From positions 1 through 46,630 of the forward strand of contig JAFLBE010000034.1 of the NCBI GenBank assembly GCA_017303995.1: 46,630 bases of DNA, in the 5' to 3' direction. The stretch is from Bacteroidota bacterium (GTDB lineage: Bacteria > Bacteroidota > JABWAT01). Positions 12,719-29,596 of this stretch are shown here, piece by piece. The position numbers and the translations under genes are program-made. How positions within the stretch are numbered: position 1 is the stretch's first letter; each line of letters opens with the position of its first letter. The notes below the pieces were generated by a model. It saw only the letters and a list, made by a program, of their open reading frames with translations. It ran no database searches and had not been told where the DNA came from.

Positions 12719-12733
12719 TATCTTTGCATTGTG
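12719..12733 (+). promoter_or_regulatory. -7 box overlapping a probable leaderless GTG start
   Basis: TATCTTTG (12719-12726) matches TAnnTTTG. Its expected transcription start, about five bases beyond the final G, falls on the GTG start codon at 12731 of the methyltransferase gene. No ribosome-binding site lies upstream of that codon. A well-spaced -33 element is not seen. Confidence 0.5.
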
Positions 12734-15052
12734 AATAATTTAAAAGACATAGATATATGGGAATCAAACTTTGGTTTACTCCCAATTAAGTTAAATCCGC
12801 TTAACCAAGTAGACAAGTTTCTTATGCTCAATGGTGGGCAAGGCGATTTCTGTTTGAAAACATCTGCGAAAGGAGACGAAAATCACAGCACAATATTTGG
12901 GGAATCTTGGTCGACAAACACAAAAAATTTTTTATTTATTGATGTAGATTCTGTTGAAGTGGTTAATTGGTTTGAAGGTAAAACAGAAAACATTCCAAAC
13001 AAAAAGATAGAATTTAACTTAGGACAATTTTACAAGTACCTTTCTTCTAAGTCTCATAAAACACAAAATGATGTAGTCCCCTTCATTCTTGATATTTTCA
13101 GACAACTTAGAAACATAACTTTTGAAAAACAAGATTCATCAGAAGCTATCAATCTACTCTTTACATTGCTAATAAGCCTTGATGAAGACATTTCAAATAT
13201 AGATTATAAAAAATGGAACATATCAGAATCCAAAATTCCTGATAGGTTTGACTACTTTGTTGAGCGTTTAAATCAAGGAGTAAGAAACATTAAGCCTAAT
13301 CTTGATTTAATTCTTCGTCATACAGCAGGCATACTATTTCAAGAAGCTCATCGCGAAGTAATTTACTTTAATCCACAAAGAGACTTATTTGGCGGTGTTT
13401 CAAGTAAATTAGAAACTAGATTAGATGCTTATTCTAGCATTCATTACACTCCTCAATATATTGCTAGGAGTATAGTTGAAAATACAATAAAGAACTTGGA
13501 TTTAACTAAGCCTAATATTACAATTCTTGACCCTTCATGTGGCTCATCTGAGTTTTTAATAGAAGTTTTAAAACAGCTAAAAAATAAAGATTACAAAGGA
13601 AAAATTTCCATAAAAGGTTTTGATTCTTCTGATAGTGCCATAAGAACGTCTAGTTTCCTTTTATCATATGAAAACCGTAAACAATGGAAAAATGAATTGA
13701 CAATTGAAGTAAAACGAGTAGAAGATTCATTAGTAGAAGATTGGGGGGAAAATGATTTAATATTAATGAATCCACCCTTCCTCTCTTGGGAATTATTAAA
13801 GGAGAAAAGTAGTCGAGATAATGTATTAAATATTTTGAATGAAGTTGTTAGAAGAAGTAGACCAAATCAAGCAACGGCATTCTTTTATAAGGCAAGCCAA
13901 TCATTATCAAATAATGGTATTATTGGTTGTGTTTTACCTACCTCAATTTTTTATTCTGAAATTTACTCTGACCTTAGAAATAAAATAGGGGAAGATTTGA
14001 ATTTTAAGATTTTGGCTAAACTAGGAAATTATGTATTTGAAGACGCATTAACAGATGTAAGTTTATTTATTGCAATAAAGAATCATTCAGTTCAACTTCC
14101 AAAAGTTTTATGGACAAAAAATGAAAAAGGAGTTGTTCAAGACGCTTTGAGAGAGTTTAGAAAAATGAATGCCAATAATGAGCTTTCAATAAACAGTAAA
14201 AACTTTAGTATTTACACACCACATTATTTCCCAATTGTTAACAATAGTTGGAAGTTAATTTCATTTGATGAAAATGAATTCATTAAAGAAGTAAGTATTT
14301 ATCATATAGCAGGAAAATTATCAACCATTGGTGATATTTTCGATATTTGGCAGGGAGCTTTATTAGGAGTAAAAAACGTTTTTAAAATAACGTCAGCAGA
14401 ATATGAATTATTATCAGAACCAGATAGAAAATTATTCAGACCAATACTAACGAACAACTCAATAAAGTTAGGAAAAATACTAATAACCGAATATAGTTGG
14501 TTTCCTTATAGAAATGAAGGCTTGATATTCAAAAATGAGCATGAATTGTTATGCTTGGATTTTTACCACACAAGATTGTTACCAAACAAAGATATACTTG
14601 AGAAAAGAAAAGGTGTAAATCAATGGTGGTCATTAACTAGACCAAGGAATTGGCAATTCCCTAAAGAATCAAGACTATATTCAAATAGATTTGGCAACTC
14701 CAATTCCTTTGCATTTGATAAAGAAGGAAATTGCATTATCGAAGAAGGAAATGCTTTTATTCCTAAAAAGGAATTTACCATCAACGATTATTACTTTTAT
14801 TTGGCTTGCTTTAGCAGTAATATTTTTGACTTACTACTCTCTGTATATTCAAAACCAATAATGTCGGGTTTTGATTTGGGTAATATTCAAATTAAAAATA
14901 TTCCAATTCCAAATATTCATAAAGATAATTTGAAATTGAGTGGTGTATATTTAAAATTGGTTGAATTAGGTAAAGAATTAGAAAGTGGAAATTCATTTGT
15001 TAAGCCTGTTATAGATGATATTCTAAAATCCTACTTTTATCCAAATAGATAG
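12731..15052 (+). CDS. N6-adenine DNA methyltransferase with specificity domain
   Basis: 773-aa class I SAM-dependent DNA methyltransferase. The SAM-binding motif is DPSCGSSEFL (from residue 267) and the catalytic motif is NPPF (347-350), diagnostic for N6-adenine modification. IGCVLPTSIFYSE is a later core motif. The last 250 residues (IGDIFDIWQGALLGVKNVFKI onward, with TRPRNWQFP) resemble the target-recognition domain of TaqI/Eco57I-type enzymes, so it should choose its own site. No PD-(D/E)xK nuclease motif is evident in the first 200 residues. It is much richer in A+T than its neighbours, with many AAA, ATT and TTA codons, which points to horizontal transfer. GTG start chosen because the next ATG is 31 codons in. 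The 208-aa gene follows after 4 bp. Confidence 0.82.
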   Translation: MNNLKDIDIWESNFGLLPIKLNPLNQVDKFLMLNGGQGDFCLKTSAKGDENHSTIFGESWSTNTKNFLFIDVDSVEVVNWFEGKTENIPNKKIEFNLGQFYKYLSSKSHKTQNDVVPFILDIFRQLRNITFEKQDSSEAINLLFTLLISLDEDISNIDYKKWNISESKIPDRFDYFVERLNQGVRNIKPNLDLILRHTAGILFQEAHREVIYFNPQRDLFGGVSSKLETRLDAYSSIHYTPQYIARSIVENTIKNLDLTKPNITILDPSCGSSEFLIEVLKQLKNKDYKGKISIKGFDSSDSAIRTSSFLLSYENRKQWKNELTIEVKRVEDSLVEDWGENDLILMNPPFLSWELLKEKSSRDNVLNILNEVVRRSRPNQATAFFYKASQSLSNNGIIGCVLPTSIFYSEIYSDLRNKIGEDLNFKILAKLGNYVFEDALTDVSLFIAIKNHSVQLPKVLWTKNEKGVVQDALREFRKMNANNELSINSKNFSIYTPHYFPIVNNSWKLISFDENEFIKEVSIYHIAGKLSTIGDIFDIWQGALLGVKNVFKITSAEYELLSEPDRKLFRPILTNNSIKLGKILITEYSWFPYRNEGLIFKNEHELLCLDFYHTRLLPNKDILEKRKGVNQWWSLTRPRNWQFPKESRLYSNRFGNSNSFAFDKEGNCIIEEGNAFIPKKEFTINDYYFYLACFSSNIFDLLLSVYSKPIMSGFDLGNIQIKNIPIPNIHKDNLKLSGVYLKLVELGKELESGNSFVKPVIDDILKSYFYPNR

Positions 15053-15056
15053 AATT

Positions 15057-15683
15057 ATGAGTGATTATCTTGGTATCGTTGAAGCAATAAACAAGGATTG
15101 TAGGAATTATGTTGAAAATTTTAAATTAATTGAAGTTCCTGGGTATTATAACATTACATTATTCAAAATTGTAGGTAATTCATTTGCAATAAACAGATAT
15201 AATTCAGAGCCGGTCAAAGTTCAAAGATGGTTTGACAAATATTGGTTGTATATAGAAGTTAAATTTACTGGTCAAGAATCAAAACATGGGCAAAAGCGAA
15301 TTAAAACAATTCATACTAATATTTCAATTTCAGTTTTTGAAGGTGATGATTCAGATGAAGTGAAAATTCAACTCTTTAGAGCTGAATGGGACGATTGGAA
15401 TGACCCTGAACATAATCACTCCCAACCACATTGGCATATTACATCAAGTCAAGCGATTGAGAAAACAATTGAAGAATATTCAATTCATTTTGATAATGGT
15501 GATTTTATTTCACTCTTAGAAGACCAAAAATCAAAGCTATCCGATATCAAAAAAATTCATTTTGCGATGAATGGAAATTGGCAATACGACCAGACCCATA
15601 TTCATTCCATTAAAAGTTCAAACCAAGTATCCAAATGGCTTAAAGGACTATTAAATCACATCAGAGTAGAGCTAGAAAAATAA
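15057..15683 (+). CDS. Unknown 208-aa protein paired with the methyltransferase
   Basis: I do not recognise this family with confidence. The protein is cytosolic (no signal peptide) and acidic. It has a conserved-looking His/Trp-rich core: RAEWDDWNDPEHNHSQPHWHI (about residues 103-123), then IHFAMNGNW and THIHSI. Such clustered His and acidic residues could bind a metal, but no HNH, GIY-YIG or PD-(D/E)xK motif is clear. Its position 4 bp after a solitary methyltransferase, with the same low GC, suggests it is the functional partner, perhaps a restriction or regulatory subunit. That is inference from context only. Confidence 0.7.
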   Translation: MSDYLGIVEAINKDCRNYVENFKLIEVPGYYNITLFKIVGNSFAINRYNSEPVKVQRWFDKYWLYIEVKFTGQESKHGQKRIKTIHTNISISVFEGDDSDEVKIQLFRAEWDDWNDPEHNHSQPHWHITSSQAIEKTIEEYSIHFDNGDFISLLEDQKSKLSDIKKIHFAMNGNWQYDQTHIHSIKSSNQVSKWLKGLLNHIRVELEK

Positions 15684-16048
15684 ACAACTGTTCCCTAAAC
15701 AAGTGGCATAAAACATTGAGGTTTAAGTAGTTATTCGAGCGTTCTGCCTCGCATCAAGTTCGTTATAACGGGACAGGATAGTAGCCCGTAATCCACAACG
15801 ATTTCATCCCGCAAGCCGACAGTAGGTTTAGTCTTAAAAGTTAAAGAATGCCATTAAAAACAAAAAAATTAAATCACAGAACTTCCTTTCAAAATCGCCT
15901 TAAAAGCCCAAAGGGCTGACAGGATTCTAGAAAACAAGAAAACCCCCACATTTAAAAACCCCGAAGGGGTGGTATTATTTTGTTTATTTTATCGGTAACT
16001 AAATCCTAATTTTAATTCAAATCAAAGCCTGTTTGGCCTTTTCCTTTT
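15684..16048. other. Convergent intergenic region with short hairpins
   Basis: This lies between the plus-strand methyltransferase pair and the end of the minus-strand Pel operon. AGCCC-AAA-GGGCT (15905-15917) and ACCCC-GAA-GGGGT (15958-15970, followed on the plus strand by a T-rich stretch) are short hairpins that could end transcription from either side. Around 15765-15795 there is ACGGG...CCCGT. Composition is AT-rich up to about 15.9 kb, suggesting the acquired block ends here. Confidence 0.5.
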
Positions 16049-19000
16049 CTAAAACAACCAGTTCGCCTGAAGGTTTACAAGATTGGACCGGTAAAGCCTG
16101 CTGGTTGAGAGTTCAGTTCCTGCTGAGACAGTAAATCTGGGAAAGGGTTCCCAACCCATTCGTAAGGAAGCTTCTGCAAACGCACCCTGGCGGTTACTGC
16201 CCTTCATGAGTACTTCAGAAAAAACGGACCAATATTCCCATCCCCTTTCAATTCGTAATCCGGCACCCGCAATCAGCCAATTATCAGGCGTCCAGTAAGG
16301 TTGGGCACTTGCGTATATTTTTCCTGAATTCAACCAACCGGCATCCAGAAGCGGGCGCCACGACAGACCAACTAATGTGTCGGGTGAAAAGAGATACCGT
16401 GAGGTTATAGTCGAAACCCAGTTATTGTCTGTGTACCACTCCAGCTTGGAACCGCCTGTTAAAAGGTGAGAAGAAAAAACCTTCAATTCACCGTATCCTT
16501 CAAGATCAGCCACATAAATATTTGACCGGATGGCAGTTTGGATGTATTCAGGTTCAAAATTGGTTTTCAACACATAAAAGAGTGTATCTCCCTTTGCACG
16601 GTTGAAAGACAGGGTAACTTCCGGGTAAACTTTTGAGCCGTTGGTGGCGATTCCACCTTTCATATCCAGCCATTTTCGGTTTTCTTCGATTATCCAGGAA
16701 GGTTGATAGCTCACCCGGTAGTAGGCATCCTGAATGGTTTCGGTGCTGATAACCGATTTCACGCTTATCCAGTCGGCACCAATTCCGTGTACAAAAGTCC
16801 GGCGGTCACCCCAGGTCACTTTACTTTTCCAGAGCCATTCTTCGTTTTTAAAATTGTCGCCAATCCAGGTGAGACCCGCTTCAGCATAAACACCGTTGAT
16901 CTTCAATTCTTCTTCCCTTAATTCACTTCTTTTTTCCGCTGAAAAAACAGAAGCATAGTTGGTTTTTAAAGGAACCAGATTTTTCCAGTAAACCTGATCG
17001 AGTTTCTGGCGGTATTGCAATTGCTGCAGCTGAGTTACACTTTCAGAGGGAATTGCTTGATATCTTTCCAGACTTTGCTTGTAAAATCCAGATTCAAGTA
17101 AGTGGGTGGCAACCCTGTATTCCAGCGAATCATCATCAGGATGGCGTGTGAAATACTGGTCAGCAGTTTTGATGTACTCTGCCATTCGGTTTGATTCACG
17201 CAACCAGTCAAGATAGGTCACAATTTCAAAATTTCTGGCTTTTTCTGCCCAGGCAAGGGCAAGAGTTTTATTGTTTCCGCTCCAGGCATAAAGCAGTGCA
17301 ATTTCTTCTGCAAGCGGAATTAGCTGGGGATGGCTGTGTGCAGGAAAGGATAAAAACCAGCTAAAACTTTCGGTGGGTTTATCATACCAGAACGACCGCT
17401 GAAGTGCATACCGGTACAAACTGTCACTTTTTGGATGATTTGCAATAAGTTCGTTTAAAAAAGCCTTTGTTTTTGGCCAGCTGTCTTCATCCTGGTTTTC
17501 AGCGGAATAGGCACTTTTCAAAGCCAGTGAATCTGGATAAACCGAAAGTTTTCTAAGCAGCCACCGTTTTCTCACAACCGGATCAGTTTGCGGGGATCTG
17601 GAATCAAAATAATCTACCAGTTTAAGAGTAGAATCGGTAGGGAATTGTGCCCAGCGCATTTCAGCCAAAGACCAGAGTTCATCAGTTTTATCTTCCCATT
17701 GGGTATAAGTCGTGTACCGTTCAGCGTCTTTTTCGATCCAGCCGTTCAACGAAAGTAATTTGGTTCTGAGTAAATCGAGAGCATGCTGAAGCTGTCCGAA
17801 TTCAACACTCAAAGAAATGATGTTTTCGGTATTTTTGGGATCATTTTTTCCCCTTTTCAGGGAATTCAGGGCATTGGCAAGGCGGGTATCTTTCCAGGTT
17901 GAGTTAACGGTAAAGTCCTGTGTATACTTTTTAAATTCGGCACTGGCCTGGTTCTGAGCGGCAAGAACAGCCGTTGGGTTGACCTTGTGAATTTTGTGAA
18001 GTTCTGGAAGGTCAAACCTTTTGGTTTCCGTTTTCATCATCACCCAGAATCCATCCCAATGTTTTTCAAAGTGGAATCCGGGAGCAAATTCTCTCAACTT
18101 TTTAAAAATCAGAGAGGTGTCTTCTTTGGTAACGAACATGCCGTAAAAATCTTCTTTGTTTTCACTGAGGATGTGAAAACGGTTTACAGAATCCATCGGT
18201 TGCACGGCAAGTTTCATATTTCGCCAGTTTTTCACGATCGGAGCGGCATCTCTGGCGGGTAAAAACCTGATGAGCGGGAAGCGGGATTTTATATCAACAA
18301 TTCGTTTTCTGAACTCACCGTACAAATTTTTTGGGTTTCCGGGTGTATTTTTCCACCAGAGTCCTTCACTGTTACGGCTTAAAAATTGGTCTTCATCCCG
18401 CTGGAGTTCCTGAAAAACATCATCCGGGTGAACAAAATGTGTCCAGATTCCGGTCAGGATGTACATACCTTCCTGATTGTACCGTGACTCATCTTCGAAC
18501 AAATACCCTGACGTGATACGTGGATAATCAAAAAATTGAGGATGGTAAGGTTCTGGGTCAAATTCCCGGTTTCCGCCTTCTTTCAGATCACCGAGATATA
18601 GTGAACTAAAAACCTTCAGTGAACTCATTTGTCTGGCCAGAATCGGGATGCAAACTGAATCGGCTTCATTGGTTGGCGGAACGAACGTTGATGGCATGAC
18701 GCCCAGTCCGTCGAGAATCCATCTTTTTTCTACGGATTGAATTGCCATGGCCAGGAATTCAGGATTAGGCCAGTCACGCTGCATAAATGAAAAGTGGTTG
18801 TAGCCGTGAAAGCCCAGTTCATGCCGTGACCCTGCAACCTCTTTTGCGAGGTTCACACTTCCGTTTTCGACGGTTCCATTTTCAATGATCTTTCCATTTT
18901 CCCATTCAGAATAGGGAAATGGCGGATTGTTATTGGCATTATAATTCATTGCCATCATAGCTGTATAAGCCAGATCAAACGTATCTGCCATCGCCTTGGT

Positions 19001-19843
19001 ATCTGGCCACCAGATATCATGGACAAAATGGGCGTGATTTTTATTATATTCTTTATCGGCCGGATGCATCATCGTGTTATACAGTGGTGCCGGAAAGTCA
19101 TCCAGAAAAATGGTTGAGGTGTTGGCAATCGGGTAGGGAATGCCGGGCAACCCGCGCAGAACGACAGAGAACAATAATCCACGGGCAACCTTGTCGTTCA
19201 TGGTTGAAGTGTTGAGGTAAAAAACCTGACCTTTACCCACTTTTTTTCGTGTCAGCAACGGAATTGAAGGCTCTTTTAAGGACTTAAGGATGATTTCTGT
19301 TGAGGGTAGGAAGTCACGGCCTGAGAAACCACCATGAATAGGTGCGACAACCTTTCCATATTCAATTTTTTCAATACCTGGGAATACGTTCTCCTTGAAA
19401 ACCCAGCCACTTGTTTTATTATCGAGTGACATATCAGGTTTGGGTTTTAATCCGATCAGATAAAAAAGCCGGGTTTCGTAACTGGTTGCCGCAACCAGAA
19501 TAGTCCCGCCCCGGGCAGCAAAATCCACCAGAATCCTGAAATTGGTATCTTTCAATTTCGACAACTGATCGGTAGTGATCACGATTTCTTTAACTGATTC
19601 GGGGATTTCGATGCCGGTCAGAAGCAGAGACACATCGATGACCTTTACCCGGAATTTGGCATAGTCGGCTGATTTCATCAGGTTTTCGGTAATGCCCCGG
19701 CTGAGTTCATCTTTGCTGTTCATGATGACCATGAGCAAAGTGTTGTCTTTTTCTTCAGCAACGGGCGTAAAATTTTCAGTTCCCTGATCACAGGAAAGAA
19801 AAACAAGGGTTACAATCAGAAGAAAAACGAATCTGAGGGTCAT
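16049..19843 (-). CDS. PelA-type deacetylase (DUF2194) fused to PelB-like TPR and outer-membrane barrel
   Basis: 1264 aa. Residues 1-18 form a signal peptide ending in a lipobox-like VFLSC. Residues 30-235 resemble the glutamine-amidotransferase/reductase-like domain of DUF2194 and PelA proteins. Residues 240-540 are a polysaccharide deacetylase: metal ligands probably D248/D249 (TIFLDDF) and H346/H350 (GFHGYNH), with THFVHPDD (468-475) as a later motif. In Pel systems this domain partly removes acetyl groups from the N-acetyl-galactosamine-rich polymer. Residues 640-950 are helical, TPR-like repeats. Residues 970-1264 alternate as beta-strands and end NLQANWLF, as in an outer-membrane barrel, like PelB. 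In Pseudomonas these are two proteins. It overlaps the upstream gene by 4 bp and ends the operon; GAGGAG precedes the ATG. Domain limits are estimates. Confidence 0.82.
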   Translation of the reverse strand: MTLRFVFLLIVTLVFLSCDQGTENFTPVAEEKDNTLLMVIMNSKDELSRGITENLMKSADYAKFRVKVIDVSLLLTGIEIPESVKEIVITTDQLSKLKDTNFRILVDFAARGGTILVAATSYETRLFYLIGLKPKPDMSLDNKTSGWVFKENVFPGIEKIEYGKVVAPIHGGFSGRDFLPSTEIILKSLKEPSIPLLTRKKVGKGQVFYLNTSTMNDKVARGLLFSVVLRGLPGIPYPIANTSTIFLDDFPAPLYNTMMHPADKEYNKNHAHFVHDIWWPDTKAMADTFDLAYTAMMAMNYNANNNPPFPYSEWENGKIIENGTVENGSVNLAKEVAGSRHELGFHGYNHFSFMQRDWPNPEFLAMAIQSVEKRWILDGLGVMPSTFVPPTNEADSVCIPILARQMSSLKVFSSLYLGDLKEGGNREFDPEPYHPQFFDYPRITSGYLFEDESRYNQEGMYILTGIWTHFVHPDDVFQELQRDEDQFLSRNSEGLWWKNTPGNPKNLYGEFRKRIVDIKSRFPLIRFLPARDAAPIVKNWRNMKLAVQPMDSVNRFHILSENKEDFYGMFVTKEDTSLIFKKLREFAPGFHFEKHWDGFWVMMKTETKRFDLPELHKIHKVNPTAVLAAQNQASAEFKKYTQDFTVNSTWKDTRLANALNSLKRGKNDPKNTENIISLSVEFGQLQHALDLLRTKLLSLNGWIEKDAERYTTYTQWEDKTDELWSLAEMRWAQFPTDSTLKLVDYFDSRSPQTDPVVRKRWLLRKLSVYPDSLALKSAYSAENQDEDSWPKTKAFLNELIANHPKSDSLYRYALQRSFWYDKPTESFSWFLSFPAHSHPQLIPLAEEIALLYAWSGNNKTLALAWAEKARNFEIVTYLDWLRESNRMAEYIKTADQYFTRHPDDDSLEYRVATHLLESGFYKQSLERYQAIPSESVTQLQQLQYRQKLDQVYWKNLVPLKTNYASVFSAEKRSELREEELKINGVYAEAGLTWIGDNFKNEEWLWKSKVTWGDRRTFVHGIGADWISVKSVISTETIQDAYYRVSYQPSWIIEENRKWLDMKGGIATNGSKVYPEVTLSFNRAKGDTLFYVLKTNFEPEYIQTAIRSNIYVADLEGYGELKVFSSHLLTGGSKLEWYTDNNWVSTITSRYLFSPDTLVGLSWRPLLDAGWLNSGKIYASAQPYWTPDNWLIAGAGLRIERGWEYWSVFSEVLMKGSNRQGAFAEASLRMGWEPFPRFTVSAGTELSTSRLYRSNLVNLQANWLF

Positions 19844-21852
19844 GGCTTTTTCTCCTCATCAGTATTAAAGAGAATATCCAGCAGTTTCGATCCGTTTGGT
19901 TTATTAACCAATTCATAAACGATAACTGATTCATCCCGATAAAATTCTTCGATTTTCCGGCCAGGTAAGTTTGCGAAAGATTCAATCCATTGGGTGGTCT
20001 GCTGCATGACCAGAGGGGCATTATAAAGTACGCCATTCCCGATAGAGACAGAGGTTGGCTTTTCAACAAAAATAAAGATACTTGAAGGGGGAACGATAGG
20101 TTCGCGGGAATTGGATTTAGGGGCGTTCAGGTATTGGTGGTAGAGCGAATCCATAGTACCATACTCATTGAGAAAAAACTCGTAGTTCATGAAAAAGTGC
20201 CGGTTAAGTGCGAGATTTCTGTCAATTTCAGGGCTCACAGTGGCGTATGAATAGGCGAGACGACCTGCAATAATCTCATAATAAGCTTCAAAAAAACCAT
20301 TGGGCATGGTCGTGGGCAAGGTTCTCACGAAAGTAATGCCACCCTGAGCAAAAATCAGGACTGAAATAATAAGTACCGGAAGGATTTTTTCTGCATGCCA
20401 CTTAAAAATAGGTACAACATGACGGTTGATCATTGAAAAAATGACATAGAGAAATACAGAAAGCATCACCGGAATCAGGAAAGAATAGAATGCATTCAGT
20501 TGGTCGATGTCAACCCAGAAATACGCAATATTGAAAAAGGGAAGATAGATAAAGGCACCAACGGCAAAAGTGACAAACAGAAAAACATCATTCGACATAA
20601 ACGGCCGTTTTGCCAGGCGATTTCGGAGCATTGAAAGTGCGGCGCCAAGAAGTGCCAATAAAAAATAAACTGCTGAAAGAGATTCCAGCGGGAGAATAAG
20701 ACTGGGTGTATAACTGAACATGCTTGTAGAATAAAGCTGGGCAAGGAAAAAAGGCTCCAATTCCAGGTCATGGATATACAAACCAGTGAGATAAGTAATG
20801 AATACAAGTCCGAGCATGACGGAACTGTAAGTGAGCAGTTTCAATTTTCCTTTCAGGTTGGAAGGAATCAGAACAAGTTCAGTTACCAGAAAGGGAATCA
20901 GAATGATAAAAAGAACAAACAGATTACTGAGTCCGGTTGCAATAAATCCGGCAAGAATAAACGGAAACAGTTCTCTTTGGTTCAACCTGAGAAAACGGGT
21001 AATCCAGATGGCCGTGGGGATGGCAAAACACAGGGCAAAGTCGATGGTATTTGATTCAATCTGAAGTTCAAGTGAAAGCGGGGTGACCAACGTGGGAACG
21101 ATAGCATAAATTGCCGCACCCATCAGAGCAAGCCAGGTTCTGTAAAAGGTAACAAGTGATATCACCCACCAAATTAAAAAAGTGAGCAGCATTGCAACAA
21201 TACTTCCGAAGAGATGGAGCATCATTTCAGGACTTACCTGGGTCATGGCCGAAGCTACATTTATGAGGGAATGCATACCGAGCGGATCAACTGAGTTGAA
21301 AAAATATTCCTGAAGGTTCAGGTGCTTTACTTTTATCAGTTCCTGATACCAAAGCCGGGTGAAAGGAGCCGCATTTTCAATGGAGGGAACAATACGAATG
21401 GCACCTGCTGCGAGAATGATGACCAATAAAACACCAAAATAAAACTTGTCGGTTTGGTTTTCAGACTTTTTAGATGTCAGGCGTTTTTTGAGTTCTGCTT
21501 TGGTGAAAAAGGTTCGGAGTTCAATCAGTTTGATAATCTTGTTTACAAATGAGGTTTCAAGATTCCGGAATGGAATCATGATGCCCTTTTTGCGGTGAGT
21601 CCAGAAATATCTGAACAACGGTGCACCGAGAAGCAAAATGGCCATGCTGAACAAATCGTACATGTGCAGGGAAGTCAGCATGACAATCCCGCCCATAATG
21701 ATGCCGCCGATCCCCACCCAGGAAAGAATAAGCCGGTCAACAAATTTCATTTTTTTCAGTTCTGGAAACAGCAGGGGTGCGATGAATCCGTACAGAACAA
21801 AAAACCAGAGAAAAAGCCGGAAAATAGAAGTAATGGCGAGAAAAGTGTACAT
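19840..21852 (-). CDS. Large multi-pass membrane protein, possibly GT-C-like, of the Pel operon
   Basis: 670-aa integral inner-membrane protein with roughly 12-14 hydrophobic segments through residue about 500 and a soluble C-terminal part of about 150 residues. The segment APFTRLWYQELIKVKHLNLQEYFF...DPLGMHSL after the third or fourth helix looks like the first periplasmic loop of GT-C-fold membrane transferases. This is a resemblance only; no specific family is recognised. It sits where PelD or PelE might be expected but has neither a TPR nor a GAF/GGDEF domain. It could polymerise, decorate or translocate the polymer, or anchor the synthase. It starts 9 bp after the hydrolase gene and overlaps the fusion gene by 4 bp, so it is certainly part of the operon. 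Confidence 0.75.
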   Translation of the reverse strand: MYTFLAITSIFRLFLWFFVLYGFIAPLLFPELKKMKFVDRLILSWVGIGGIIMGGIVMLTSLHMYDLFSMAILLLGAPLFRYFWTHRKKGIMIPFRNLETSFVNKIIKLIELRTFFTKAELKKRLTSKKSENQTDKFYFGVLLVIILAAGAIRIVPSIENAAPFTRLWYQELIKVKHLNLQEYFFNSVDPLGMHSLINVASAMTQVSPEMMLHLFGSIVAMLLTFLIWWVISLVTFYRTWLALMGAAIYAIVPTLVTPLSLELQIESNTIDFALCFAIPTAIWITRFLRLNQRELFPFILAGFIATGLSNLFVLFIILIPFLVTELVLIPSNLKGKLKLLTYSSVMLGLVFITYLTGLYIHDLELEPFFLAQLYSTSMFSYTPSLILPLESLSAVYFLLALLGAALSMLRNRLAKRPFMSNDVFLFVTFAVGAFIYLPFFNIAYFWVDIDQLNAFYSFLIPVMLSVFLYVIFSMINRHVVPIFKWHAEKILPVLIISVLIFAQGGITFVRTLPTTMPNGFFEAYYEIIAGRLAYSYATVSPEIDRNLALNRHFFMNYEFFLNEYGTMDSLYHQYLNAPKSNSREPIVPPSSIFIFVEKPTSVSIGNGVLYNAPLVMQQTTQWIESFANLPGRKIEEFYRDESVIVYELVNKPNGSKLLDILFNTDEEKKP

Positions 21853-21861
21853 GAAGTCCTG

Positions 21862-22686
21862 TTAGTTGGTATCAGGAGGAAGAACCGGAAGTTCGTCCAA
21901 TGATATTTTACCAATAAAGTAGGGAAATGGAAAGTCGTTTAATCTGGATTGCAGACTGTCTGTGAGGTTTTCACGGTCTGAAAAATCAATCAGAAGAAAC
22001 GGCTTTTGATATTTTTCTGAGAGGTCAGTTATATTTTTTATTTTTTCACTGAAATCCTGCTCGTTTTCAAAGCGGTAAGACTGATCGGAAAACCGGTAAT
22101 CACTTGCAATATCTTCGATTGCAACCGCATTGATTGAAGAAGAAGTTTGATCGAGAAGAAAAAGTCCGGCATTTTGAATCAGAATGGCATCCGGATTTTG
22201 TTTCCGGATGGAATTGATCAGATCTGCCATATCTTTTTGTAGATTTTTGCGGGAGGTGTAAGGTGCAACGGCGTCGACCGTATCGAAAAATAATCCGTCA
22301 TACCCCGAAGCCATAATGTTTGGAATGATCCGGTCAAGAAAGAGTTGCCTCACAGACTTGTTTCCAATATTCAGAAAGTGACTGCCCCAATCTTCATTTT
22401 TCCCCAGCAGGTTACCCGTTGAATCTGCAAGCGGAAAGTACCACCGTGACGGATGAACTTCACCCAGACTTACATAGGCGATTACCTTCGCACCGCCTTC
22501 TTTCATTGCATCGATATCCAGTTTGGTGTAATGATCGGGTTCAACCACAACCAGCTTATAGTTCACAATATTTTCAGGGGTTAGTCGTGAATAGCAGATT
22601 CCAAACGGCCCAGGAATCTGGGTTGTGGTGTTGCAACCAGAAAGAAAAACCGACATCAAAATGCCGGCAAGGCCTGATTTATTCAT
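21862..22686 (-). CDS. PelA hydrolase-like lipoprotein (GH114/GH166-type TIM barrel)
   Basis: 274 aa with signal peptide and lipobox FLSGC (C18), so probably anchored in a membrane facing the periplasm. The rest matches the endo-alpha-1,4-polygalactosaminidase-like domain that forms the N-terminus of PelA. Visible motifs are VVVEPDHY (46-53), AYVSLGEV (70-77, E76), YDGLFFDTVD (129-138, with D135 and D138), IQNAG and AIEDIASD, which line the active-site end of the barrel. In Pel systems this domain cuts the galactosamine polymer and affects how much is released. Here it is an independent protein, whereas in Pseudomonas it is joined to the deacetylase. It overlaps the HD-domain gene by 4 bp. 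Confidence 0.85.
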   Translation of the reverse strand: MNKSGLAGILMSVFLSGCNTTTQIPGPFGICYSRLTPENIVNYKLVVVEPDHYTKLDIDAMKEGGAKVIAYVSLGEVHPSRWYFPLADSTGNLLGKNEDWGSHFLNIGNKSVRQLFLDRIIPNIMASGYDGLFFDTVDAVAPYTSRKNLQKDMADLINSIRKQNPDAILIQNAGLFLLDQTSSSINAVAIEDIASDYRFSDQSYRFENEQDFSEKIKNITDLSEKYQKPFLLIDFSDRENLTDSLQSRLNDFPFPYFIGKISLDELPVLPPDTN

Positions 22687-24314
22687 GGTTTCCCCAACTC
22701 AGATATGGATTTCCAGTCAGATTTGTTAATAATTGCAAGTAGTTCACTGACGAGGAATTTTTCGAATTGTTTTCCTGAACGGCGGTTGAGTTCGTTTATA
22801 AGCGACTGAACTTTTTCTGAATCTGAGTTTGAGTCATTTTCGTGATTTTCAACGAATTCTGACAGGAATTCACAGATCGAAACCAGCTTGCCCGTCCAGG
22901 GAATGTCGTCACCTTTCAGACCTTCGGGCATACCGCCACCATTAATCCACTCATGGTGTGATTTTATTCCTGCGGAAATAAGCGGATCAGAGCCCATCAT
23001 CTCTAAAATCAGGCTTCCCAAAACCGGGTGTTCCAGTTCTGCTTCGGTAGACAACTTTCGGTTAAGTGTTGCATAGGCAACCAGACCAATATCATGAAAC
23101 CGGGCAGTTGTAACAGCTATTTGCTTTTCTTCCGGTTTTAATTCCATCCGGTCAGAAAGAAGTGAAACAAGAGCCATCACACGGCGGGTATGGCCCGATT
23201 GGTTTCCTTTTCTGTTTTCCCAGGCAAGAATGAGCCGGAAAAAGAATTCAAGAACCGATTCATTCAGGCTTTTGAGTGATTCCTTAACCTTGATAACCGA
23301 AGAAGCTGCTTCATTGATATCAAAAGAAACCTGAGAATCGAGCAGATTCCGATATTGCAAAACAGACTTTTTCCGGCCAAGAACCAGAAAACTGATTGAA
23401 GAGGTGAAGTGATTAAACCGGATGAAAATATCAGTTAAACCTGCCTCTGAAATAATGGTTTCATCATTTACCTTCCAGCTTTTTGCTGTCGGGTCATAGG
23501 TCATAAGACCCGGATTCAGGATTGATGTACGTGCATTTTTTAGATTAGCAGGTACGCCTGATTCTGCTCTGATGATCCAGTCACCTCCGGTTAATTCGGC
23601 AATAAATCCCAAATCCGCCTGGCTGATTGCCAGATAATAATTGAGAATAAATTCAAGAATATCCTGATTTCCTGCTGTGTTGAAATTGAGTTTGGGAAGG
23701 TCTTTTTTGATTCCCTGAATAAATGACCCTGACTTTTTAATTTCGGAATCAACTATTTCAACCAGCCATTTTGAAAGCAATTTTGACAGAATTCCGGTTT
23801 TGGAAACCAAAACTGCAGGGTGCTGAACAAACGGACCAATCACATAAAAACCCCAAAGTTCACGGTTTTTAAAAAGGGGGATGAGTAAACATTTCCCGAT
23901 CGAAAGATCGGTCTGGTTATCTATCAGATACTTCGGGTCAAACGGGAATTGGCGCTCAAGATTTGAAAGCTGATCTTCGATTCCGGCCATGTATTCATTT
24001 TTTTGTCTGGATGATAAATTCTGAAAAGAATCTTCACTCAATTTACTGAAATGGTCGAGATTTCGGGTCAGAACCTGTTTGTAGGTTAGATCCAGATTCG
24101 GACTGTCGAGTAAATAGAAGGCATGCAGCAGACTTTTGTACGGACCATCAAGCCATTCAACAATCTGAAGAAAGGAAACCGGTTCTGTAAACGCAGCCAT
24201 ATCGGCGGCAGTTGCCCAGAATAAAGCTTCATCTTCAAGAGCAAAATCATCCATGACAAAAGATGATTTTAAGCGGGATGAAACCGTTTGCAGATAGTGA
24301 CTGAAATCTTTCAT
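22683..24314 (-). CDS. GAF-like/HD-GYP-type protein with altered signature, Pel operon
   Basis: 543 aa, no membrane segment seen. Residues about 70-345 look like one or two sensory domains of GAF type (GKCLLIPLFKNRELWGFYVIG at 140-160; DIFIRFNHFTSSISFLVLGRK at 295-315). Residues 355-500 are an HD domain: H375, H407-D408 (FHDIG), H429 and H453-H454-E455. The HD-GYP signature HHE-x-x-D-G-x-G-Y-P is here HHEWINGGGMP, so the Asp is Asn and the Tyr is Met. HD-GYP enzymes break down cyclic-di-GMP; the substitutions leave open whether this one is active, binds without cleaving, or acts on something else. Its location suggests it takes the regulatory role of PelD. Spacing to pelG is 12 bp. Confidence 0.82.
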   Translation of the reverse strand: MKDFSHYLQTVSSRLKSSFVMDDFALEDEALFWATAADMAAFTEPVSFLQIVEWLDGPYKSLLHAFYLLDSPNLDLTYKQVLTRNLDHFSKLSEDSFQNLSSRQKNEYMAGIEDQLSNLERQFPFDPKYLIDNQTDLSIGKCLLIPLFKNRELWGFYVIGPFVQHPAVLVSKTGILSKLLSKWLVEIVDSEIKKSGSFIQGIKKDLPKLNFNTAGNQDILEFILNYYLAISQADLGFIAELTGGDWIIRAESGVPANLKNARTSILNPGLMTYDPTAKSWKVNDETIISEAGLTDIFIRFNHFTSSISFLVLGRKKSVLQYRNLLDSQVSFDINEAASSVIKVKESLKSLNESVLEFFFRLILAWENRKGNQSGHTRRVMALVSLLSDRMELKPEEKQIAVTTARFHDIGLVAYATLNRKLSTEAELEHPVLGSLILEMMGSDPLISAGIKSHHEWINGGGMPEGLKGDDIPWTGKLVSICEFLSEFVENHENDSNSDSEKVQSLINELNRRSGKQFEKFLVSELLAIINKSDWKSISELGKP

Positions 24315-24326
24315 AGATTACCTGAA

Positions 24327-25940
24327 TCAGTATGCGGTGTAGTAGAAATAATCAAGTTTGGAAAAGAAACGGTGAACCCATTTCCAGGTCAGAAAAGCAA
24401 AAACGGCAGAACCAGCAATCAGACCCAGAACTGCATATTCATAAGAAATTGTACGGCTGCAAATGTAACCAACAACAAAATTCACAATGACGCCAATGAT
24501 CATGGCATTCATTGCAAAAGCAGCCCGGTTTAATGTGAAAAAAAACAAAGCGTGTAACAGACCAAAACACAACAGAATATACCCGATGCTTGCCAGCCAG
24601 TAAACCCGTATCGTAACCGGGTTATCAAAAAAGTCTCTCAGTTCCGGAATTCGGTCTTTGAACTGTTCTAGAGACATGACGGCAAAATAAACCAGTACCA
24701 TTGAGACAATACCAATAATGAGCAGAATCAATGCCTGACGGTAATAAAACCGTTTGAAGAATTTATTGAAATCTTCAACCTGATCAAATGAGGTTGCCTG
24801 CTGAACCGGAATAATAATTTTTGAAAAGCTGTGAATCGAATATTCAAGAACCGCAATCGTGAGCAGCAGAGTGATCAGGGCCCAATCCATGCCAAGTTCA
24901 TAAGGTGTGTTGAACCAAATAATATACGGTGGTGGGGGCGGACCCGCAGACCAGGCTAAAATCCGGTCAAGAAAAAGAAAGAAAAAATAAAGCGTTCCAT
25001 ATGCAAAAAAACGATAGGTGTTGAAAAACACAACTTCCGTTTTTGGCATTCTGGAAAGAGAAAAATCCTTTCTCATATTTTTGATTTTAAACCGGTAATA
25101 CGTCCAGCCATAACCAAACATAATGATGATCGAGACAGAAAGTCCGAGCCAGTGAGACAGGTAAATTCCCAGATTAAAAACTTCCATTCCAGTGATGACA
25201 AATGCAGTCCCAATGGCAATGCTCACGCTGATCATGAGCCGTTGTTCAGTGGCATAAAGTACTGCAGAACTTTGAATCAGCAAACTCAGCAGAATCATGT
25301 AAGTCATCGAAAGGAACATCATGGTCTGCGGGTAAAAAGGAATCACCAGATTGACTATAAAGAAAATCAGAGCAACTGAAAGCGTGGTCACAACACCGTT
25401 TCTGATGGTGTTTTTTGCCGCTTTATAAGCAAGCAGATAATTTCCTGACCCATTATAATAAGAGGCAAGTCTGCCCATAAGCTGGGTAAAACCTCCAGTG
25501 ACAACAAAAGCAGTGATCGTGCCCAAAGCCACAATCGTTGCCTGTGCTTCATTGAACCTTAGCCAGGCCCACAAAGAATACGTGAGGAAAATGACTGAAA
25601 GAATCTGAATGGCCATGGGCATGGCAAACAGGATTCCCTGGCTGTAATATTTGAAGAAATATTTGAACTCAGTTAGCGCCGTTACTTTGAAAAAATCCGT
25701 TTTTTTCTTTCCGTTTTTTTCGGTTTCTTCAATAATGAGAAGCCGGATGTCTTCATGAACCTGATCAGCGAGTTTGAAAACATCAGCAAATCCGTAATCG
25801 GCAACGGCATCCATATCTCTGACGCCGAGAGATTCAAGTGTGGCTGCTACTGCATAAACATTGATGGGATTGCCGATCAGAGTCCTGACTTCAAGTACCA
25901 AATTATCGTAAAGTTCCTTTTTCAGAGTTTCAGGCTGCAT
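24327..25940 (-). CDS. pelG: PelG-like polysaccharide transporter
   Basis: About 537 aa, a polytopic inner-membrane protein of the PelG family (MOP/Wzx-like flippases), the Pel component thought to move the nascent polymer across the cytoplasmic membrane with PelF. About 12 membrane segments follow a cytosolic N-terminus of about 100 residues. Family-like stretches are FKYYSQGILFAMPM, ATIVALGTITAFVVTGGFTQLMGRLASYYN and AYKAAKNTIRNG. I start at ATG 25940 (MQPETLKKELYDN), which has GGAG six bases upstream and overlaps pelF by 11 bp. The in-frame ATG at 25970 would add 10 residues from within pelF and lacks such support. Confidence 0.9.
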   Translation of the reverse strand: MQPETLKKELYDNLVLEVRTLIGNPINVYAVAATLESLGVRDMDAVADYGFADVFKLADQVHEDIRLLIIEETEKNGKKKTDFFKVTALTEFKYFFKYYSQGILFAMPMAIQILSVIFLTYSLWAWLRFNEAQATIVALGTITAFVVTGGFTQLMGRLASYYNGSGNYLLAYKAAKNTIRNGVVTTLSVALIFFIVNLVIPFYPQTMMFLSMTYMILLSLLIQSSAVLYATEQRLMISVSIAIGTAFVITGMEVFNLGIYLSHWLGLSVSIIIMFGYGWTYYRFKIKNMRKDFSLSRMPKTEVVFFNTYRFFAYGTLYFFFLFLDRILAWSAGPPPPPYIIWFNTPYELGMDWALITLLLTIAVLEYSIHSFSKIIIPVQQATSFDQVEDFNKFFKRFYYRQALILLIIGIVSMVLVYFAVMSLEQFKDRIPELRDFFDNPVTIRVYWLASIGYILLCFGLLHALFFFTLNRAAFAMNAMIIGVIVNFVVGYICSRTISYEYAVLGLIAGSAVFAFLTWKWVHRFFSKLDYFYYTAY

Positions 25941-27546
25941 CAGTTTCTCCGATTTCACCCAAACTTTCAAGGAATTTTCTCACGGATGGTAGTTTGACAC
26001 CATGCTTCAAAGGTTTGCCATTTACCTTGTGAAATTTCTGATAGCTTGATTTGTAGGCATCAACCGAAACTTCCGTCGTAAAATTAAGAAGCACTTTTTC
26101 ACGGCCTCTTTTTCCCATTTCATATCTGAGATCATCATCCCGTAAAAGCAAAATCACACCTTCAGAAAGTGAGACCGGATCCCGGGGTTTGCAGATGATT
26201 CCGCAATCCTCCAAAGCTTCACGGGTTCCGCCCACATCGGTAGCCACAACCGGCCGGGCACAACTCATCGATTCAATAACCGTGTAAGGAAATCCCTCAG
26301 AAATTGAAGTCAGAATAGAAATGTCACCTTCGTTGTAAATGCCGGGTGGATTGCTGTGAAATCCGCCAAAAGTGAAGTTTTGTTCTAATTTTAGCTCCTG
26401 GATCAGTTTTCTGCAGGTTTCAACGTAAGGTTTGTCGGCGTCAAGACTGCCATAAACCAAAAAGTGAACATCCGGAATTTCTTTCCTCACCAGATCACAG
26501 GTTCTGATCATGGTTTCAATATCTTTCAACGGGAAAACCCGGGCGGCAGCCACAACCGTTGGGCGTTTTGAAGTCGTTTCCGGTTTGGGTTTCGGGACAA
26601 ATACATTCGGGTCGATGCCATTGTAAATCACGGCGATACGATCTTCTGTAGCATCAAATTTCATTTCCCAGCGTCTGTTATAACTGGCAACTGGTGAAAT
26701 CTGATCGGCATGGGCATAAACGGCTCTCGTCATAAGAGTCGACATATCAACGAGAAATTTCTTCGCAAAAAAAGTAAATTCTGCCTGGCTGACAGCAATC
26801 AGTCTTTCGCGGATAAATACGCCGTGATCGGTTACAATCATGGGCGTTCCGTATTCATATTTGGCGACCAGAGACGGAATTCCCGCAAATCCGGCAAGTG
26901 TTGCATGAGAAACACTCGATGGCGGAACCGGAACTGCCAGTGGCATCATGAAGTGATAGAACCAGCGAAGTCCGAAAATCATGTCAAAAATATTGGGAAC
27001 TTCGAAGCCAGGTGTGTTTTTATACTGATTATAATCCTGAGAAACCCGGGTTTTGTAAATCTCCCAGATCATTGGGTGGGTCAGCGTCATTTTATAATCG
27101 TAATGACGGAAAAATTTCCAGAGACCGTAGACAATTTCCCCAATCGTTTCTGCCGGAAGGTACGGGTCGGCAAGTGCATCAAGAAGATCATAAAACATGG
27201 GACAGAATGATTTTTCAATGACCGACCAGGTTGTGGACATTTTCCGGTTGACCTGTTCGGAGAAGGGAGTTTCCGGATCAAAATACTCAGCAGGTTCTTC
27301 AGCGCCCCATAACGGAACGTGAATGGTTCCCTGAATATTTTTTCCAAGTTTGTAACGGCTTTCAACGTTCGGGTCGCCTGTAATGGCATAAAGAATGAAA
27401 TCACAACTTCCGTCCATTTCCTGACAAAGAATATGACTCCACGTCGAAACCCCGCCGCCGACAAACGGGTAAGTTCCCTCTGTTTCAAATAACACAACCG
27501 GTTGGGTGGGCTTGTTTTCCAGCCATTCCTTTTGGGTTCTGATCAA
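25930..27546 (-). CDS. pelF: PelF glycosyltransferase (GT4)
   Basis: 538 aa, cytosolic GT-B enzyme of family GT4; PelF is the polymerising transferase of the Pel pathway. The N-terminal DUF3492-type signature is EGTYPFVGGGVSTW (23-36), followed by DHGVFIRERL. The C-terminal nucleotide-sugar domain has ARVFPLKDIETMI, the E-x7-E motif in SEGFPYTVIES, and VVATDVGGTREAL. Length is near that of characterised PelF proteins (about 500). The start codon is TTG at 27546, overlapping the stop of the upstream gene (TTGA), and has AGGAG at a suitable distance. No alternative ATG exists before the conserved region. Confidence 0.93.
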   Translation of the reverse strand: MIRTQKEWLENKPTQPVVLFETEGTYPFVGGGVSTWSHILCQEMDGSCDFILYAITGDPNVESRYKLGKNIQGTIHVPLWGAEEPAEYFDPETPFSEQVNRKMSTTWSVIEKSFCPMFYDLLDALADPYLPAETIGEIVYGLWKFFRHYDYKMTLTHPMIWEIYKTRVSQDYNQYKNTPGFEVPNIFDMIFGLRWFYHFMMPLAVPVPPSSVSHATLAGFAGIPSLVAKYEYGTPMIVTDHGVFIRERLIAVSQAEFTFFAKKFLVDMSTLMTRAVYAHADQISPVASYNRRWEMKFDATEDRIAVIYNGIDPNVFVPKPKPETTSKRPTVVAAARVFPLKDIETMIRTCDLVRKEIPDVHFLVYGSLDADKPYVETCRKLIQELKLEQNFTFGGFHSNPPGIYNEGDISILTSISEGFPYTVIESMSCARPVVATDVGGTREALEDCGIICKPRDPVSLSEGVILLLRDDDLRYEMGKRGREKVLLNFTTEVSVDAYKSSYQKFHKVNGKPLKHGVKLPSVRKFLESLGEIGETDAA

Positions 27547-28724
27547 TTGGAAAACTCCTGAAATAGGTGCTCATACTGACCAAAAATAACTGGCCAGGTA
27601 TGGGCACGCACAATCTTGTTGTGACAGTCGATTTGCTCAGAAAGCCAACGATCTGAGTCAGAAATGATCGGTAAAATGCCAGCTAAAACATCCTGAACGC
27701 CAGATTCCTTTGGGAACGAAATGCCAAAACTCTCATTGAAATCACCCGCTTCCCATCCGAATGGGACAACTCCCCTTGCCATGGCTTCGAGCATCACCAG
27801 AGGTTGTGCTTCGCTGATGCTTGTCAAACAAAGGGCATCCATTTTGTCAAAATATGAACTGGCCGGTTGATTCCAAATTGCGGTAATAGTAGGAATCTGA
27901 CTAAGCCGTAACCTGACTTCTTCGTTCAGATCAGCCTCTCCGGCATCAGCAAGCAGCATGAGAAAACGCGGGTTCCATCCCTCTGTTTCTGACCACTTTT
28001 CGGCCAGATCAAGAAAACGGTGCGGATTTTTAAGATGAGCACAACGGCCAACCCAGCCAACGACCGGATCGTCGAAAACGGGGTGAAACTCAGGAACTGT
28101 ACTTACCATGCGGAAAGGAACACCATTTGGGATGTAGGTTGAGTTTTGTGCACCAAGTTCACTCTGAAAAACCTGATTGCAGACTGAAACTGAAAAAATC
28201 AGGGAGGATTGTTTATAGACTTCACGGGCAATTGACTGAAAAAACAAAGAAGCCAGATGACGTTCGGTTGGATTTGATGGAATGCGGTAGCCACATTCCA
28301 AAGCATCAGCGCCCAGTTCAATTTCCTTCCAGTAAACGCCGTGCTCGGTCAGAATCAGGGGAATCTCATCCCGTTTCGAAAGTGCGAGTCCTGCGAGTCC
28401 GGCAAGTCCGGTGTTCAAAACGTGGATAAAATTGGCCGGTTGTCTGGGGAGCAGTTCAAGAATGGAATCTGTCCATTTTTTCGGATCGGTTAAATCTTCT
28501 GGCGGATTAATTCTTGTAAAGGACTTCACATTTTCAGGAACCGGGTAAACACCCTCGGTTAATTCATACCCGGCATAATCATCAGTTGAAATCTGAATAA
28601 TATGAAAGTGGGCAGTGCGGAAATAGTCAAGATAATGACAGATCCATTCACTTACGCCACCACGGTACCAGGGAAAAGTTCCTTCAATGACTAAGGAAAT
28701 GGTTAACGGTGCTTGAGACGACAT
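27543..28724 (-). CDS. Short PelF-like glycosyltransferase paralogue (GT4)
   Basis: 393-aa GT-B transferase resembling PelF. It has the same opening signature, EGTFPWYRGGVSEW (14-27), TEHGVYWKEIELG in the N-terminal lobe, VGWVGRCAHLKNP in the linker to the second lobe, and the E-x7-E motif in SEAQPLVMLEA. It is about 145 residues shorter than the adjacent PelF. Both catalytic-type motifs persist, so it may be an active second transferase or a partner of PelF. The start at 28724 has only a weak AAAG upstream. It overlaps pelF by 4 bp. Confidence 0.85.
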   Translation of the reverse strand: MSSQAPLTISLVIEGTFPWYRGGVSEWICHYLDYFRTAHFHIIQISTDDYAGYELTEGVYPVPENVKSFTRINPPEDLTDPKKWTDSILELLPRQPANFIHVLNTGLAGLAGLALSKRDEIPLILTEHGVYWKEIELGADALECGYRIPSNPTERHLASLFFQSIAREVYKQSSLIFSVSVCNQVFQSELGAQNSTYIPNGVPFRMVSTVPEFHPVFDDPVVGWVGRCAHLKNPHRFLDLAEKWSETEGWNPRFLMLLADAGEADLNEEVRLRLSQIPTITAIWNQPASSYFDKMDALCLTSISEAQPLVMLEAMARGVVPFGWEAGDFNESFGISFPKESGVQDVLAGILPIISDSDRWLSEQIDCHNKIVRAHTWPVIFGQYEHLFQEFSN

Positions 28725-28750: not shown

Positions 28751-29596
28751 TCAGGAAACACCCGACGAAAAAACGGGGCCAACCTGACGGAAAATGGCTT
28801 CGATTTCGTTTTGTTGTTCTTTTGAAAAGGGTTGGGTTTTTAAAACAAGTAAAAAGGTTTCGGGGTATGAAGAACTTTCATCTCCGGAAGGCTTTATTAA
28901 TAAGTCCCTGCCCGATTTTAGTGTGACAGGAACAGCGATAACTCCTTCGGTTCCGGTCAGTTTGAGTGAAGGAAAATTGCCGGTTAAAGAAATACCCGAT
29001 AATTGATTTGCTGTGATGCCGATTTTACCCGCAGACGAAATTAACTGGAAAGTAGTCCCACTGCGTTCAATCAAGGCGAGTCCATCAATTTGTAAAGTGT
29101 TTGAAAGATAATCAGCCCAGGCAATCACGGTTTCACGGCGATTTTGGCCGGAACTGAGTTCTGTAAGTTCTGAAGCAACTTTAGAAAGGTTTTCAGCCGG
29201 AAGACTTTGGTCTGAAGATTTCTCTGGCTGGTTATCCAGGATCAAAGAATGGACACGGTTGAGAAGAAGTTGCCTGTTGATGGGTTTCAAGATGAAATCA
29301 GCAACACCGAAAGACTCAGCCTTTTTTTGTTTGTCTGATGAGGGAAGTCCGGTTAAGACCAGTACGGGAATGGATGAAAGTTCACTTTCAGATTTAAGCC
29401 GTTGAACAAATTCAAGGCCCGATTCGCCAGGTAAATTCAAATCGGTAATAACCAGATCAACCGGTTCATTTTTTAACAACTGAAAGGCTTCGGTTGTGTT
29501 AAAAGATTGAATAACCTCAAACTCTTTATCGAGCATAAATTTCAGAATAATCTGAATATTTGCATCATCATCAATGACCAGGATTCGGGCTTTCAT
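28751..29596 (-). CDS. Response regulator with receiver and GAF-like C-terminal domain
   Basis: 281 aa. Residues 1-120 are a complete receiver domain: acidic pocket D9-D10, phosphoacceptor D52 (VITDLNLPG), T82 and K104 (KPI). Residues about 140-281 lack a DNA-binding output; the segment AWADYLSNTLQIDGLALIERSG followed by strands (FQLISSAGKIG, GVIAVPVTLKSGRDLLIK) looks like a GAF-type sensing domain. It therefore probably signals through protein contact, plausibly to the HD-domain protein or Pel enzymes. AAGGA precedes the ATG. It is 26 bp from the glycosyltransferase gene and 234 bp from the first regulator. Confidence 0.82.
   Translation of the reverse strand: MKARILVIDDDANIQIILKFMLDKEFEVIQSFNTTEAFQLLKNEPVDLVITDLNLPGESGLEFVQRLKSESELSSIPVLVLTGLPSSDKQKKAESFGVADFILKPINRQLLLNRVHSLILDNQPEKSSDQSLPAENLSKVASELTELSSGQNRRETVIAWADYLSNTLQIDGLALIERSGTTFQLISSAGKIGITANQLSGISLTGNFPSLKLTGTEGVIAVPVTLKSGRDLLIKPSGDESSSYPETFLLVLKTQPFSKEQQNEIEAIFRQVGPVFSSGVS

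Follow-up and report, generated by a model that had tools for sequence, protein, structure and literature searches.

We analysed a stretch of 46,630 nucleotides (the window) of contig JAFLBE010000034.1 from a Bacteroidota bacterium (assembly GCA_017303995.1), and the gene studied here lies at 16049-19843 on its minus strand. It is a single open reading frame (ORF) of 1264 amino acids with an ATG start and no internal stops, its ATG overlaps the stop of the preceding gene by 4 bases, and it is the final member of a minus-strand row of Pel-like genes. The initial annotation had placed a deacetylase, helices of the tetratricopeptide repeat (TPR) type and a barrel in this one chain, and that assignment was borne out, at the level of sequence, by a match to Pfam DUF2194, by profile matches to TPR proteins and by homology of the barrel. 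The features of the gene were as follows, the borders given with "about" being approximate.

16049-19843 (-): fused gene, DUF2194 deacetylase, TPR-like region and predicted outer-membrane barrel, 1264 amino acids; 25 relatives aligned
19790-19843 (-): signal sequence with lipobox VFLSC, Cys18, residues 1-18; pattern match
18122-19780 (-): CBM114 and CE26 deacetylase (Pfam DUF2194), residues 22-574; E 1.7e-63, solved relative 9zau
19097-19102 (-): D248/D249, corresponding to catalytic base D262 and metal ligand D263 of Bacillus cereus PelADA in the alignment to 9zau
18794-18808 (-): H346 and H350, HxxxH metal motif, corresponding to H350/H354 of the same enzyme; in 26 of 26 aligned proteins
18518-18520 (-): R442, corresponding to base-coordinating R458 in the alignment to 9zau; 26 of 26
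18419-18430 (-): H472-P-D-D475, corresponding to catalytic acid H488 and D490/D491 in the alignment to 9zau; 26 of 26
17924-18121 (-): linker or beta-rich part, about residues 575-640, weakly conserved in the alignment
16949-17923 (-): TPR-like helical region, residues about 641-965; family profile matches to TPR proteins, TPR families in 4 of 25 scanned proteins
16052-16948 (-): C-terminal barrel domain, probably of exporter type, residues about 966-1264, ending VNLQANWLF; sequence homology and strand periodicity
16067-16537 (-): barrel stretch, residues 1103-1259, with WYTDNN and PYWTP motifs, matching stand-alone TPR-barrels; E 1.8e-10
15958-15970 (-): terminator-like hairpin 3' of the gene; 4 such sites in 551 bases scanned versus 0.6 expected

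Enzyme, scaffold and barrel

The enzyme part matched DUF2194 with 215.4 bits against a Pfam cut-off of 30.4, and its sole clear solved relative was 9zau (E 1.5e-33 with the single sequence, 7.1e-76 with a 25-row profile), which is PelADA of B. cereus, the founding member of CBM114 and CE26 (PMC13254593). That protein is a metal-dependent de-N-acetylase, proven on oligomers of alpha-1,4-linked N-acetylgalactosamine (GalNAc), in which D262 serves as base, D263, H350 and H354 as metal ligands, R458 as the base-coordinating residue and H488 as acid, with D490/D491 listed beside them (PMC13254593). In an alignment of 26 proteins, being the window protein and 25 relatives, the residues D248, D249, H346, H350, R442, H472, D474 and D475 were invariant throughout. 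The deacetylase site that had been proposed from D248/D249, H346 and H350 is thus intact by sequence, and the chain would have deacetylase activity. Judged by its sequence, the enzyme part is a PelADA of the Gram-positive type (CBM114 plus CE26), not a PelA as in Pseudomonas. A Pseudomonas-type PelA identity was considered and rejected: a Pfam scan gave no hydrolase domain in the chain, GH114 being a separate gene, and no PelA-named chain occurred among the 55 PDB matches found up to E 10 with the family profile. Of the comparison with PelA and PelB that had been drawn earlier, the idea that fusion fixes the contact between enzyme and exporter was kept, but the enzyme proved to be of the PelADA/DUF2194 kind.

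Scanning for the scaffold gave no Pfam TPR match up to E 1 in the window protein, with such matches in 4 of 25 scanned family proteins (best E 2.3e-23). The family profile reached TPR-type proteins (designed TPRs and LapB) at positions of about 680-968, with E values from 1.2e-6 down to chance. By these profile matches the scaffold of about 300 residues is real and TPR-like, but divergent in the window protein.

The C-terminal domain was compared using a seven-row barrel profile, built on stand-alone TPR-barrels, three from family f63 (families carry f numbers here) and two from f43, plus the fused proteins from f28 and f4. With it, residues 1103-1259 of the window protein were matched at E 1.8e-10, whereas none of 26 reversed decoys did better than 1.3. 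Sixteen of the 26 fused proteins gave matches at E ≤1e-3, one of them belonging to the profile itself, and one fused protein (L069) scored below the best reversed decoy. Against eight PgaA barrels the seven-row profile gave a probability of 87.6%, an E value of 3.5e-6 and a score of 49.4, compared with 36.0 for the best of 60 block shuffles and 18.9 for the reversed control, and the motifs YSDGN/FSDSN and PYWTP/PYYNP lay in register between the profile and PgaA. When 24 barrels from both fused and split proteins were combined in one profile, the score against PgaA was 45.0, the best of 100 shuffles reaching 39.0. Pfam PgaA_barrel gave a sub-threshold match in one relative only (E 0.0064), profile comparisons based on single sequences gave weak results for PgaA and BcsC of E. 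coli, and the C-terminus of BcsC gave no match to the barrel. Residues 965-1264 contained 13 amphipathic nine-residue windows, equal to 4.3 per 100, as compared with 17 (5.8 per 100) in PgaA and with 2.35 and 2.9 per 100 in the TPR and enzyme parts of the fused protein, respectively; strands counted by eye came to about 16, which is not a test. The last residue is Phe, as had been stated. Within the window genome the fused gene was the sole match to the barrel profile, and plasmid searches using the stand-alone barrel as query gave no match. The C-terminal domain is probably a PgaA-type polysaccharide-exporter barrel, which would form a closed pore. Having an N-terminal passenger ahead of a barrel, as surface-display proteins do, the chain could also be read as a deacetylase displayed outside the cell by a barrel that serves as membrane anchor and has no role in export. 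We rejected that reading as highly improbable, since the barrel resembles PgaA exporters and follows TPR-like helices as in PgaA and PelB, and since the operon showed no other candidate exporter.

Distribution, split relatives and the putative lipid end

Genome searches within the phylum covered 394 genomes, together with 244, 294 and 295 genomes from the classes of G025, G242 and G133, respectively, and 4 from the window's own class, these sets overlapping. The 394-genome search gave a full-length DUF2194 match in 26 genomes, each in an ORF of 1268-1349 amino acids, and short, weak matches only in 19 further genomes. All searches together gave 41 genomes with DUF2194 at E ≤1e-20 (42 gene copies), 32 of which, with 33 copies, had a fusion-length ORF, so that the same fusion, sought in other genomes, was found across families f1, f4, f13, f16, f24 and f28. 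Thirty of the fused copies were aligned or compared, while those of G394, G395 and G398 were judged on length only. The gene was present in two of the four genomes of the window's class, fusion relatives occurred in the single-contig genomes G064, G133 and G190, and a full-length copy, 95% identical, exists in another assembly. An artefact of assembly or sequencing that had joined two genes is a reading of negligible probability. Nothing speaks for it except that f43 and f63 have the parts as separate genes, and it was rejected in view of that 95% identical copy and of 30 copies aligned from independent genomes, some of them on one contig. The fusion is thus real, as had been supposed.

The nine genomes without a fusion-length ORF comprised two with split genes (G496 and G500), one in which the contig is too short to tell (G499) and six of f63. 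In G496 (f43), a DUF2194 gene of 626 amino acids overlaps by 4 bases with the next gene, which encodes a TPR-barrel of 521 amino acids with its own signal peptide, and G500 has an adjacent pair of the same kind. The deacetylase of f63 is encoded by itself; G557, G564 and G590 have a TPR-barrel of 551-555 amino acids on another contig, and in G594 the barrel match is likewise on a different contig. At one locus (L133, 4269-9434 (-)) the gene row around the unlinked f63 TPR-barrel includes a glycosyltransferase gene and one like an O-antigen ligase, and because of these neighbours it may serve another polymer.

A tree was made from 31 enzyme rows, leaving out five near-duplicates and three further copies. 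In it, f43 came out beside f28 and f4, a placement that was weakly supported (82/53), and a single clade of all 24 fused rows was not rejected (approximately unbiased test, p-AU 0.276). At least two changes of state between fused and split are required, so that either one fusion followed by fission or two fusions took place, and both of these accounts stand. That relatives have enzyme and TPR-barrel as two proteins, and that the weakly conserved stretch at residues of about 575-640 sits between the parts, would also suit a chain cut after export into free deacetylase and TPR-barrel, the fusion then merely giving equal amounts of the two. We consider this quite unlikely, the joint form having been maintained in six families; no cleavage motif was seen, none having been looked for.

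Two fusions were longer, having 1586 (L096, 9369-14129 (+)) and 1649 amino acids (L097, 6351-11300 (-)), with about 300 residues beyond the barrel that include a SPOR-like domain (E 0.068 and 1.6e-4, respectively). These chains would hold enzyme, scaffold, barrel and a tie to the cell wall.

At the N-terminus, VFLSC with Cys18 fits the usual lipobox pattern and lies at the end of a hydrophobic stretch. The pattern was found in 21 of the 30 fused copies (19 strict, 2 loose) and in all five stand-alone f63 deacetylases seen. Most of the nine fused copies in which it was missing show an ordinary-looking cut site, and one of the nine (L078) has a lipobox-like Cys by eye. From the lipidated-end topology given in the initial annotation, the VFLSC pattern therefore stood, but it is not a universal trait of the family. 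If the lipobox were non-functional, signal peptidase I would cut, no lipid would be attached and the double membrane anchor would not be real; this would agree with the nine copies lacking the pattern and with the Phe at -3, a position where Leu, Val or Ile is more usual. We hold it to be rather unlikely, as the pattern ends the hydrophobic stretch in 21 fused copies and five stand-alone enzymes. Lipidated outer-membrane barrels have precedents, such as OprM. Since the f63 enzymes that stand alone also resemble lipoproteins, the double-ended topology seems to reflect an ancestral N-terminus that the enzyme retained when it was fused, and the predicted lipid end looks inherited and dispensable.

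The Pel-like gene row

From its head, the minus-strand row runs in the order of the lines below and ends with the fused gene.

28751-29596 (-): response-regulator-domain protein heading the row; conserved in f1 and f16
27543-28724 (-): additional PelF-like protein, shorter than PelF; NF038011 103.4 bits, cut-off 100
25930-27546 (-): PelF glycosyltransferase; NF038011 161.6 bits, cut-off 100
24327-25970 (-): PelG-like polytopic protein, about 11 transmembrane (TM) segments; named from its position in the row, not from sequence
22683-24314 (-): HD-domain protein, HD-GYP-like; HD_5 E 1.8e-9
21862-22686 (-): GH114 (polygalactosaminidase-type) hydrolase with lipobox-like start; E 2.9e-16
19840-21852 (-): polytopic membrane protein, 670 amino acids, about 12 TM segments; without a family in Pfam or NCBIfam; in relatives, too, located upstream of the fused gene

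The row with PelF and the GH114 hydrolase was maintained in families f1, f13, f16 and f24. The shorter PelF-like protein was conserved in f1 and f16 and missing in f13 and f24. The HD-domain protein, a possible regulator in the place of PelD, has NGGGMP where DGxGYP is expected and was absent from the f13 and f24 operons. Plasmid searches using the PelG-like protein as query gave no match. The Pel-like operons of f28, f4 and f63 (L072, 5862-9798; L119-L124) contained SpoIIE-phosphatase and HD-GAF parts, with STAS in f28 and f63, and these parts resemble a partner-switch control of polymer synthesis. A low-GC island (31-33%) with an N6-DNA-methylase gene adjoins the operon (12731-15683 (+)).

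Proposed mechanism and known systems

We consider it likely that this single chain both deacetylates a Pel-like polymer of the alpha-1,4-GalNAc type and exports it from the periplasm to the outer membrane. PelF, assigned by family, and the PelG-like protein, assigned by place only, would make the polymer and move it across the inner membrane, whereupon the N-terminal CBM114 and CE26 domains, with the active site seen there, would bind it and strip acetyl groups, and the TPR-like superhelix would guide it to the C-terminal barrel for export. With enzyme and channel on one chain, their ratio would be fixed at 1:1 and the enzyme kept at the channel mouth, and the permanent fusion may replace the docking of PelA on PelB that is needed in Pseudomonas. 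A DUF2194 gene and a TPR-barrel gene would have been joined to give the present one. Its lipobox probably goes back to the N-terminus of an ancestral lipoprotein enzyme, and the signal peptide that the barrel once carried would have been lost.

Several points weigh against this coupled deacetylation and export. The Pel-like nature of the polymer is one that we infer. The PelG-like protein suits PelG in position and topology; its profile probability against PelG was 1.9, with no match in a second comparison, and PelC, PelD and PelE were not recognised in the operon by a Pfam/NCBIfam scan, the libraries of which may lack such models. A barrel profile of fused rows, made without L072, L093 and L095, scored 37.2 on another alignment, under the 38.3 of the best of 100 shuffles, so that the link to PgaA rests on intermediates, being the stand-alone and f28/f4 members. 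AlphaFold models of residues 560-1264 and 960-1264, for which the rows were the window protein and L002 (95% identical), reached a predicted local distance difference test (pLDDT) score of 37.9 and 31.2, respectively, and were not used as evidence.

More tentatively, and with the odds clearly against it, the chain might be a self-contained export unit tied by its N-terminal lipid and its C-terminal barrel, looping round the polymer path so that no polymer bypasses the deacetylase and replacing PelA, PelB and the PelC lipoprotein ring together. If such a doubly tied unit were true, the SPOR domain found after the barrel in some members would be a third tie, to the cell wall.

How modification of a biofilm polymer is coupled to its export is an open question; in Pseudomonas, the contact of PelA with PelB changes activity but may be lost. 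A natural fusion with unfused relatives offers a direct way to ask if a permanent contact suffices and if PelC can then be dispensed with. The findings would also extend the PelADA family, described in the cited literature from Gram-positive bacteria, to Gram-negative outer-membrane export, and suggest a likely role for many proteins filed as DUF2194.

With regards to known systems, B. cereus PelADA (PDB 9ZAU) shares the family across the whole enzyme part, all catalytic residues and a Pel-type operon with PelF, but it is Gram-positive, has one TM anchor and lacks TPR and barrel; Gram-positive pel loci are treated in PMC7112168. The Pseudomonas PelA-PelB(-PelC) system has a deacetylase, a TPR scaffold and a barrel that work together, as they would here, but as three separate proteins, with 19 TPRs in PelB, and no PelC was recognised in the window operon. 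There, PelA is a CE21 enzyme with a hydrolase in the same chain, its deacetylation is raised by PelB binding (PMC12022489), and PelB forms a 16-strand barrel ringed by PelC (PMC12141448). The E. coli PgaA-PgaB system for poly-N-acetylglucosamine has a barrel related by profile and neighbouring genes for deacetylase and TPR-barrel; it differs in its separate proteins, its enzyme family and its polymer. Fusobacterial Pel-like operons (Cetobacterium, Fusobacterium) likewise have DUF2194 beside PelF and PelG, but with separate parts, a TM-anchored enzyme and no TPR-barrel fusion. These fusobacterial rows end in a small separate barrel-like gene (L110, 16340-17290 (+), OMP_b-brl E 1.4e-6; L111, 16040-16957 (+)), which is a different export solution.

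We did not find the DUF2194-TPR-barrel fusion named in the open-access literature, supplements aside. The passage of PMC9012183 that gives pelADEFG in KSB1 does so without architecture, and the words "fused" and "Bacteroidetes" are absent from the main text of PMC7112194. A BcsZ-BcsC fusion in Zymomonas and rearrangements of pel loci are reported in the latter source, and that fusion of a periplasmic modifying enzyme to an exporter is the nearest precedent for the principle, although it involves a hydrolase rather than a deacetylase and belongs to a cellulose system. What appears to be new here is the fusion of deacetylase and probable exporter, two jobs that previously studied systems divide between different proteins.

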